DNA of 64,000 bases, taken from positions 1,976,370 through 2,040,369 of the forward strand of contig NZ_CP043875.1 of the NCBI RefSeq assembly GCF_032878975.1. The letters run 5' to 3'. Positions 9,769 through 56,941 of this stretch are shown one piece after another (the first letter of the stretch is position 1; each line of letters starts with the position of its first letter). The DNA comes from Methanoplanus sp. FWC-SCC4. GTDB taxonomy: Archaea; Halobacteriota; Methanomicrobia; Methanomicrobiales; Methanomicrobiaceae. Position numbers and translations under genes: made by a program. Under the pieces are notes generated by a model. That model ran no database searches. It was not told the DNA's origin and was given only the letters and a program-made list of their open reading frames with translations.

Positions 9769-10998
9769 TTGGAAGATCAGGATCCGGAAAAAACGGACAT
9801 TATTATTAACAGCACAATTATAAAAGTACACAATGTTTCTAAGGTTTTCGGCACAAAGCCAAAAAATGCATTAAAATTTATTGAAAAGGGATTGTCCAAA
9901 AAACAGATTTTTGAAAAAACAAATCATATTGTTGCTCTGAAAAACGTATCTTTTGAAGTATTCAAAGGTGAAACGTTCGTCATAATGGGTCTTTCAGGAT
10001 CAGGAAAATCAACAATACTAAGATGCCTGAACAGACTGATAGAGCCAACAAAAGGAACAATTGAGATTGCTGACAAGAATATTACACAACTCAGCAAAGA
10101 TGAACTAATTGAGGCAAGGAGACACCTGACAGGCATGGTTTTTCAGAATTTTGCACTCCTGCCTAACAGAAGCATAATTGACAATGTTGCATTCGGCCTT
10201 GAAATACAGGGTATGCCTGAGGAAAAAAGAAATGAACAGGCAAAAGAGGCACTAAAGCTCGTTGGTCTTGAAGGATATGAAGATAATTATCCTGGACAGC
10301 TTTCAGGCGGAATGAAACAGAGAGTGGGACTTGCAAGGGCTCTTGCAAGTTCACCAGAGATTCTCTTAATGGATGAAGCCTTCTCAGCACTTGATCCGCT
10401 TATCAGAAGGGATATGCAGGATGAACTTATTGAGATTAGAGACAGACTGGACAAAACAATAATTTTTGTAACACACGATCTTGACGAAGCCCTAAAACTC
10501 GGTGACAGAATTGCCCTGATGAAAGACGGGGAGATAATCCAGATTGGAACTCCCGAGGAGATTCTGACCAGTCCTGAGAATGAATATGTCGAGAGATTTG
10601 TCGAAGACGTCAACATATCAAGGGTTCTTACAGCAAAAGACGTCATGAAAAAACCCGAACCACTCGTCGGAATAAATGCAGGACCAAATGTTGCATTACA
10701 TCTGATGAAGGAATTTGGTATTTCGAGCACATACGTTGTCGGAAAAAACCGCCGTCTTGAGGGACTCATAATGGTGGATGACACAGTAATAGCTGCCAAA
10801 GAGAAAAAAGAACTTCATGAGATAATTATCCGCGACATACCTGTTGTCAGGCCGGATACTCCGTTAAATGAAGTCATACCAATCATTGCAGACAGCAGAT
10901 ATCCTGTTGCAGTGACTGACGAAACAGGAAAAATGAAGGGTATTATTGTAAGGGGCAGTGTTCTCGCGGCTCTTGGAGGAAAGGAGGCTGAGATATAA
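9769..10998 (+). CDS. opuAA: Glycine betaine ABC transporter, ATP-binding subunit
   Basis: The ATPase that powers uptake of glycine betaine or related compatible solutes. Seen: Walker A GLSGSGKST (about residue 74), signature LSGGMKQR (about 178), Walker B ILLMDEAFSALD (about 200) and the switch His in VTHDLDEA. A C-terminal CBS pair follows (about 290-409), including KDVMKKPEPLVG and RDIPVVRPDTP. CBS pairs in this family sense ionic strength. I choose the TTG at 9769 because GGTGAT precedes it by about five bases and matches the 16S tail. Frame upstream (to 9616) reads into the promoter. The stop overlaps the next ATG by one base, so the subunits are coupled. Confidence 0.93.
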   Translation: MEDQDPEKTDIIINSTIIKVHNVSKVFGTKPKNALKFIEKGLSKKQIFEKTNHIVALKNVSFEVFKGETFVIMGLSGSGKSTILRCLNRLIEPTKGTIEIADKNITQLSKDELIEARRHLTGMVFQNFALLPNRSIIDNVAFGLEIQGMPEEKRNEQAKEALKLVGLEGYEDNYPGQLSGGMKQRVGLARALASSPEILLMDEAFSALDPLIRRDMQDELIEIRDRLDKTIIFVTHDLDEALKLGDRIALMKDGEIIQIGTPEEILTSPENEYVERFVEDVNISRVLTAKDVMKKPEPLVGINAGPNVALHLMKEFGISSTYVVGKNRRLEGLIMVDDTVIAAKEKKELHEIIIRDIPVVRPDTPLNEVIPIIADSRYPVAVTDETGKMKGIIVRGSVLAALGGKEAEI

Positions 10999-55268: not shown

Positions 55269-55655
55269 TGAGTTGACCGTTCTGAAAAATATTTCAAAAA
55301 TCAGTGATGCCAATAAAACATCACACAGGCTGACCGTGAAAACAGGAATAAAGATCAGAGATTTTTTTGCCTGCTTCATGGAAGGCATTAATTTTTGAGA
55401 TACAGTGATGAACCCTATGAGTCACCTGAGGCGATCTTAAATAATTACAATAAAAATGTCCATCACTTTTTATTTAAAAAATAAATTAGAAAATAGCTTC
55501 TTTTTAAAAATCGGACTGTAAATACAGGCATAGAATAACTCTATTTTAAAAAATAGTGCTTCAAGAGTTAATGGAATGGAAGTAACTTCCTGCATTCCTG
55601 TTTCAAATCCGGCCATATCAAAAATCTTTATTTGTAAGCTGGGAGATTTTAATGC
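55269..55655 (+). other. Intergenic region after pyrF
   Basis: 387 bases without a clear gene. GATGATGA directly at the pyrF stop, CTGA, GTGATG and CTGA in order (55264-55345) mimic a C/D-box RNA, but the spacings are poor. A T/A-rich run near 55465-55490 could be a terminator, and ATCTTTATTTGTAAG (about 55625) may hold the promoter of the next gene. Confidence 0.35.
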
Positions 55656-56018
55656 ATGATCTGGACAGAAGAGCAAATGAAAATCGCTAAAAAATATAAG
55701 TCGCTTGAAGAAATACCGGTGGAAGAGCGCCGGTACAAGTGCCACACCTGCAATCACATTGTAGATGAGACCCCGTGCCCTGCCTGCGGCGAGACAAATC
55801 TTGAGATTATGTGTCCTCTTGATCACTGTCACTGTCAGCACAATATCATCGAAAAAATCGAATACTGCCCTCTCTGCGGACAGCCGGTCTGCCCCGAATG
55901 CGGATGCCATGACGTATCACAGGTTTCACGCGTTACAGGATACCTTGCGGATGTTGCAGGCTGGAACCAGGGCAAACAGCAGGAATTAAAAGATCGTGCA
56001 CACTATAACGTAGCATGA
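55656..56018 (+). CDS. Standalone NrdD-type zinc-ribbon/glycyl-radical-loop protein
   Basis: 120 residues, no catalytic barrel. It has cysteine pairs CHTC (29/32), CPAC (41/44), CPLC (71/74) and CPEC (79/82), and further Cys at 53, 58, 60 and 84. The C-terminal stretch VSRVTGYL ... WNQGKQQELKDRAH closely matches the end of class III ribonucleotide reductase (NrdD), where the Gly in the RxCGYL motif becomes the radical; Gly95 is the equivalent. The full NrdD is about 600-700 residues, so this is only the tail. It may be a spare glycyl-radical donor, a zinc-ribbon regulator, or a fragment of a split enzyme. GGGAG upstream; overlaps cbiZ by four bases (ATGA). Confidence 0.75.
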   Translation: MIWTEEQMKIAKKYKSLEEIPVEERRYKCHTCNHIVDETPCPACGETNLEIMCPLDHCHCQHNIIEKIEYCPLCGQPVCPECGCHDVSQVSRVTGYLADVAGWNQGKQQELKDRAHYNVA

Positions 56019-56941
56019 GATATTTTACCCGCAATAATACTCTTTTTCTAAGGGGTAAATTCAGAGCAGCAAGTACAGGGGTCGGGGGAGGAATTTCCGA
56101 TGTCACAACAATATTCAACCATACCGTGCCATCAGGATTCTGCCACGAATCCCCAATAGAATATATTAAACAAATCCTTGCCGACAACCAATTCACCGCG
56201 GAAGAACAGGGGAATGAACAATTTTTCGGGATGCTCACGGCTGTCCCGATTAAAAATCTCTGCGTCTTTTCTTACGGATTTATTACGGTTTTTATAACAG
56301 CAGGAGTGACCAACCCGAATCCAAAAGGGCCGAACACAATAAACATAATTGTACACTCAAGAGAAGGTCTCCTGGAAGGTGCTCTCCTTGAAATGATAAT
56401 AACGGCCACCGAAGCAAAAGCCCACGCACTTTTTGAGATGGGATATAATTTCACCGGCACTACAACGGATGAGGTTGTTGTGGCATATAACAGCGATTCA
56501 GAAATTGTTCATGAATACGCAGGTACATTCACAGAGGCCGGTAAAAGAGTCTATGAATGTGTCAGTTTTGGCGTTCCGCACGCGATCAGGAGATACGAAA
56601 ATCTCGAAGAAGGGATGACATCCTTTTTTGTGTACAGCACCCTGAGAGGAAACGAGTGGGTTGAATGGGACAAAGAAAACTGCCCGTATTATCCCTGTCA
56701 TTTCAACGGCCAGAAATGTGATCTCTGCTACTGCCCGTTTTATCCGTGCTCTGACGAGTCACTCGGGGACTGGGTGGATTCATCGGACGGTAAAAAAGTC
56801 TGGGGATGCACACGGTGCCATTTAAATCACCATCCTGAAGTAATCACTTTCCTTTCAAAAAACCCAGAAGCAACACTCAGGGAAACAATTGAATTTGCCA
56901 GAGAAAAAGGGCTTAAGCTCGCTCCAAATTCAACAGAATAA
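56015..56941 (+). CDS. cbiZ: Adenosylcobinamide amidohydrolase with Cys-rich C-terminal domain
   Basis: 308 residues. The CbiZ domain (about 10-210) cuts the aminopropanol side chain of adenosylcobinamide so that methanogens can salvage corrinoids. Characteristic text: AASTGVGGGISDVTTIFNHT, FITAGVTNPN, GALLEMIITATEAKAHALF and FTGTTTDEVVVAYN. A second domain (about 225-290: CPYYPCHFNGQKCDLCYCPF ... WGCTRCHLNHHPEVI) is the cysteine-rich small domain (PF04071), often fused to CbiZ. Coupled to the NrdD-like gene by an ATGA overlap. Confidence 0.92.
   Translation: MRYFTRNNTLFLRGKFRAASTGVGGGISDVTTIFNHTVPSGFCHESPIEYIKQILADNQFTAEEQGNEQFFGMLTAVPIKNLCVFSYGFITVFITAGVTNPNPKGPNTINIIVHSREGLLEGALLEMIITATEAKAHALFEMGYNFTGTTTDEVVVAYNSDSEIVHEYAGTFTEAGKRVYECVSFGVPHAIRRYENLEEGMTSFFVYSTLRGNEWVEWDKENCPYYPCHFNGQKCDLCYCPFYPCSDESLGDWVDSSDGKKVWGCTRCHLNHHPEVITFLSKNPEATLRETIEFAREKGLKLAPNSTE

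Follow-up and report, generated by a model that had tools for sequence, protein, structure and literature searches.

The window analysed here, a stretch of 64,000 nucleotides from the genome of the archaeon Methanoplanus sp. FWC-SCC4, contains a gene for a protein of 120 amino acids (positions 55656..56018, forward strand) that, judging from its sequence and conservation, very probably acts in trans as the obligate glycyl-radical subunit of a split class III ribonucleotide reductase (RNR) of the NrdD3 type, an enzyme that supplies DNA building blocks independently of oxygen. A search of the whole genome with the Pfam NRDD profile (PF13597) gave matches in exactly two places, and these are complementary: a distant NrdD core covers profile positions 1-510, and the open reading frame (ORF) in the window covers positions 506-562. 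A glycyl-radical domain (GRD) with the radical glycine in an RVxGY motif was found only in the small protein, and no full-length NrdD with its own GRD was found in this genome by the same search. Thus, barrel and GRD reside on separate polypeptides. The original prediction, made from the DNA sequence alone, had described a protein holding only the tail of NrdD, and the profile match bears this out (residues 66-117 against positions 506-562 of 562, E-value 4e-13, above the cut-off). Its suggestion of a spare radical donor was essentially right as far as a stand-alone donor for RNR is concerned. The protein is not a spare here, however, because the NrdD core has no GRD of its own and the small protein carries the only one for NrdD in the genome.

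The small protein, all features of which lie on the forward strand, carries an N-terminal zinc ribbon (C29-x2-C32-x8-C41-x2-C44; 55740..55787) that weakly matches the DZR profile and may serve as a docking module. A motif formed by C53 and C60 and a compact zinc knuckle (C71-x2-C74-x4-C79-x2-C82) follow at 55812..55901. The glycyl-radical loop and tail, SRVTGYLADVAGWNQGKQQELKDR, extend from S91 to R114 (55926..55997), match the C-terminus of NRDD and include the putative radical residue Gly95 at 55938-55940. A phmmer search also matched the GRD of the P. copri NrdD (8p23; E-value 3e-6), whereas a profile search did not detect the Gly_radical domain of the pyruvate formate-lyase (PFL) type (PF01228) in the protein. 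Among 27 relatives, 67 of the 120 columns are invariant, Gly95 included, and the ratio of nonsynonymous to synonymous substitutions (dN/dS) is approximately 0.03 with saturated dS; a chance ORF would not be so constrained. None of the cysteines of the ribbon, the C53/C60 motif or the knuckle varies among 54 sequences from hosts and viruses, and the relatives of the protein likewise share an invariant SRVTGY...WN..K..ELKDR tail. The N-terminal ribbon is absent from the GRDs that full-length NrdDs carry in cis, where the cysteine spacing of the knuckle also differs. Going by these sequence features, the extra ribbon, the C53/C60 motif and the compact knuckle, the small protein is more than a severed NrdD tail.

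The NrdD core (734 amino acids; gene at C1 1070878-1073082, PF13597 match at C1 1071271-1072995) is encoded 961 kb away from the GRD gene. A gene for an NrdH-like glutaredoxin directly precedes it, an unrelated gene follows, and no zinc or glycyl-radical domain is encoded downstream at that locus. The ORF of the core ends with ...GYFAFTRDLTVSLKQF and approximately 25 variable residues. More generally, split cores read GYFAFTRDLTV[SCAPT]L.., and 25-40 or so variable residues then lead to the stop codon, whereas full-length archaeal NrdDs read GYFAFTKDMTVC...C..C...RVTGY..., their zinc/glycyl domain starting where the split cores end. In the NrdD of P. copri the core ends at residue 671 and the GRD comprises residues 676-739 (PMC11226230). 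By alignment, the split falls exactly on this domain border. The border can be regarded as a natural hinge, because binding of dATP makes the P. copri GRD mobile (PMC11226230). Inspection of the break by eye for the halves of an intein revealed the short variable tail on the cores and none on the small protein. Some cores from split genomes are very long frames with gaps at sites other than the break, as inteins would give.

The separate core gene supplies the NRDD barrel, the NxN flap and the radical and active-site cysteines. Residues N133, N135, C187, C416 and C417 are kept in 20 of the 20 split cores examined, as are the three cysteines of the finger loop, which reads SCYQCCAYQF in the window genome; dN/dS of the core is approximately 0.05. 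Enzymes of the NrdD3 type have a QCCR/A finger-loop motif without methionine (PMC9669993), and the QCC-A motif of the split core fits an assignment to this type. The search for full nrdD and nrdJ genes that the original prediction had called for thus yielded a truncated nrdD, ending at profile position 510, and a class II NrdJ, which was also present in 22 of 22 genomes tested. The radical SAM (S-adenosylmethionine) activase NrdG is encoded at C1 947069 (TIGR02495 above the cut-off).

Co-occurrence was surveyed in 119 genomes of the class to which the window genome belongs, and NrdD in general in 217 genomes of the phylum. NRDD matches were found in 109 of the 119 genomes, and 108 of these also encode the small protein (118-120 amino acids); it is missing from all 10 genomes without the core. 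The one exception, G110, has a core but not the small protein; this genome is 93% complete and also lacks the adjacent cbiZ, so its gap probably stems from the assembly. Among the matches listed for the class, the core ends at profile position 510-516. Outside the class, the matches listed run to position 560-562, i.e. to full length; incomplete ones, which come from frames that are either fragmented or very long as with inteins, were set aside. The ten genomes that lack both pieces all belong to one genus and retain CbiZ and NrdJ. The small protein thus follows NrdD and not B12. According to these sequence comparisons, the split NrdD is general across the Methanomicrobiales and fixed in the whole order. 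One genome (G005) encodes an additional full-length NrdD of 569 amino acids with its own GRD (C1:590703-592373, L187) beside the split pair.

In the core tree, the split cores form one clade with an SH-aLRT (Shimodaira-Hasegawa-like approximate likelihood ratio test) support of 100. The GRD tree separates the stand-alone proteins from the cis GRDs (support 99/99), and in an approximately unbiased test on only 43 alignment columns a single clade of all stand-alone GRDs was not rejected (p-AU 0.47). A profile search of the phylum retrieved intact stand-alone relatives of the GRD beside full-length NrdD in eight genomes (six of family f8, two of f23); at these loci (L258-L265) they are candidate spare parts of NrdD, and cbiZ is not adjacent in the loci read. 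A damaged stand-alone copy occurs in another genome (G179). At L266:4834-5163, the C-terminus of a stand-alone GRD gene is damaged, and a gene of 799 amino acids that resembles class II nrdJ lies directly behind it. The small protein and the f8 and f23 proteins have the compact zinc knuckle in common. Because relatives with this knuckle coexist with intact NrdD, and stand-alone proteins of this kind also occur on viral contigs, the sequences suggest that a trans-acting spare domain came first and later replaced the cis domain. It is conceivable, if slightly doubtful, that an ancestral spare GRD took over in the ancestor of the Methanomicrobiales and that NrdD then lost its own domain. The radical would thereby have come to lie on an exchangeable subunit: a damaged copy could be renewed, titration of the subunit could switch the enzyme, and viruses could supply fresh copies.

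In the proposed mechanism, the core would contribute the barrel and the NxN flap as well as the active-site cysteines and the allosteric parts. The small protein would dock on it, probably via the extra zinc ribbon, and the Gly95 loop would enter the barrel beside the thiyl cysteine, which would be C417 or the adjacent C416. NrdG and SAM would place the radical on Gly95 while the small protein is still free or once it is bound to the core, and a subunit cleaved by oxygen might be exchanged. Several observations weigh against such a split enzyme. The core gene lies at a great distance from the GRD gene, so that co-regulation of the two is not evident. In an AlphaFold model of the small protein alone, the radical loop has low confidence (pLDDT 57), and a Foldseek comparison of this model with the PDB returned no fold match. 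The co-loss of both pieces, confined to a single genus, represents one phylogenetic event. Moreover, with class II NrdJ also present, the organism need not depend on the class III enzyme.

Other functions of the small protein would have to account for the same pattern. A spare part comparable to YfiD/GrcA, merely rescuing NrdD cleaved by oxygen, has a precedent in GrcA itself (PMC12338860), and in the eight sampled genomes outside the class the relatives are indeed extras beside full-length NrdD. Genomes with the split, however, contain no intact NrdD for which it could be a spare, except the additional one in G005. This makes a purely rescuing role improbable in the Methanomicrobiales; for the extras beside full-length NrdD, and for the ancestor, it may hold true. 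The PFL-type glycyl-radical enzymes would be an alternative client, and a search of the window genome found none.

The two cysteine clusters that could bind zinc, together with the weak zinc-ribbon matches, might instead indicate a regulator of RNR genes or RNR activity without any radical chemistry, as the original prediction had also considered. This idea leaves unexplained why neither the radical glycine nor the SRVTGY...WN..K..ELKDR tail varies and why NrdD lacks precisely this domain, and it is very improbable. Hardly more credible is the notion that the split NrdD has become a dead relic, with the small protein serving the CbiZ-like protein in corrinoid metabolism. The almost universal vicinity of the CbiZ-like gene and the presence of NrdJ would fit, but the core is conserved under strong constraint with intact catalytic residues, and one genus retains CbiZ although it lost the small protein together with NrdD.

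The linked gene, which is of the vitamin-B12 salvage kind and lies outside RNR, encodes a CbiZ-like protein (56015..56941, forward strand; PF01955, 6e-38) with a C-terminal Cys-rich small domain (PF04071, 7e-29). As originally predicted, this domain is present and the TGA of the GRD gene overlaps the cbiZ ATG (gcATGAg at 56015-56018). In 80 named loci, most of which bear labels of Methanomicrobiales genera, the genes are arranged as DHS - pyrF - GRD - CbiZ-like - DUF1858 (reverse) - RPA1 - RPA2. The CbiZ-like gene follows the GRD gene in 79 of them, usually with an overlap, and the remaining contig ends too early; it also follows at 19 further loci checked and in G066, a few of these proteins being divergent. 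Homologues of the small protein that never occur near cbiZ or RNR genes, and loss of Gly95 from most of them, would have spoken against the original prediction. Instead, homologues adjoin cbiZ, and the glycine is kept in all. In G004, G017 and G066, tblastn searches showed that the neighbour of the GRD gene is a divergent CbiZ-like gene that has the Cys-rich domain. At L075, L076 and L268 the CbiZ-like protein has 31-34% identity to the window CbiZ and retains the Cys-rich domain, and G004 and G017 carry another bona fide CbiZ elsewhere. Such diverged proteins may no longer be corrinoid hydrolases.

The linkage of GRD and CbiZ is an old arrangement that probably reflects co-expression, and it does not define the function of the small protein. 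Of the link between corrinoid supply and deoxynucleotide synthesis proposed in the original prediction, the conserved gene order with cbiZ stands; in its occurrence, however, the small protein goes with NrdD rather than with CbiZ or NrdJ. That the corrinoid supply for NrdJ is balanced against the radical subunit of NrdD is a speculative thought. Neither a B12 riboswitch nor any other Rfam family was found upstream of the GRD gene. A conserved C/D-box-like element (TGATGAACCCTATGAGTCACCTGAGGCGA), below the Rfam thresholds, lies between pyrF and the GRD gene (55404-55440), and similar sequences occur at L097, L099, L101, L102 and L140.

Stand-alone zinc-ribbon GRD proteins are also encoded on eight IMG/VR contigs (L167:3694-4074, L168:4989-5306, L169:2404-2730, L170:4977-5387, L171:4932-5336, L215:4698-5027, and L217 and L218 at approximately 9956-10312), several of which also have genes for terminase, portal, baseplate or replication functions. 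As to the hosts, the analysis covered GRD similarity. PF13597 detected no NrdD core on the five contigs searched, although the contigs may be fragments, and the INPHARED phage records contained no close match to the small protein. If the radical subunit runs short or is damaged while a cell is infected, viral GRD genes would make sense. Short stand-alone NrdD radical tails of 58-109 amino acids without a typical zinc ribbon were seen on the viral contigs L220, L246, L248, L252, L255 and L256; they read RRITGYL...WN.GK.AELKDR and may serve other viruses as spare parts of NrdD.

To our knowledge, glycyl-radical enzymes store the radical in the active-site chain, with GrcA as the one known backup in trans. 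The split RNR is a variant of the class III enzyme. No description of a split archaeal NrdD was found in the literature; this search was incomplete, and earlier notice is a minor but real possibility. If the proposed function is correct, the two proteins offer a natural two-part system in which activation, radical transfer and oxygen damage can be studied apart. It would also correct the annotation of a small ORF that is likely misread as an NrdD fragment, and explain why viral contigs carry just this piece of RNR.

The closest known system is NrdD3 of the Methanosarcina barkeri type, which shares the profile-level core fold, the NxN flap, the catalytic cysteines, the QCC-A motif, the NrdH-like gene in front and NrdG. 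In the split enzyme, however, a gene at a distance of up to approximately 1 Mb encodes the GRD as a protein of its own, which has an additional zinc ribbon at its N-terminus and another cysteine spacing. GrcA/YfiD of pyruvate formate-lyase likewise is a small stand-alone glycyl-radical domain that works in trans on a large enzyme, as the small protein presumably does, but the small protein is a member of the NrdD family, not of the PFL family, and would be obligate, as the large enzyme lacks a domain of its own. A split class II RNR exists in Pseudomonas aeruginosa as NrdJa/NrdJb (cited in PMC9669993). It is also divided into a barrel chain and a chain with the C-terminal zinc domain, but is B12-dependent and has no glycyl radical. 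Split nrdD genes of phages consist of neighbouring fragments parted by introns, homing endonucleases or recent breaks (PMC3653736). They resemble the archaeal genes in that nrdD is in two coding pieces, whereas in the Methanomicrobiales the pieces lie at distant loci and the split is, by all sequence comparisons made here, fixed in the whole order.
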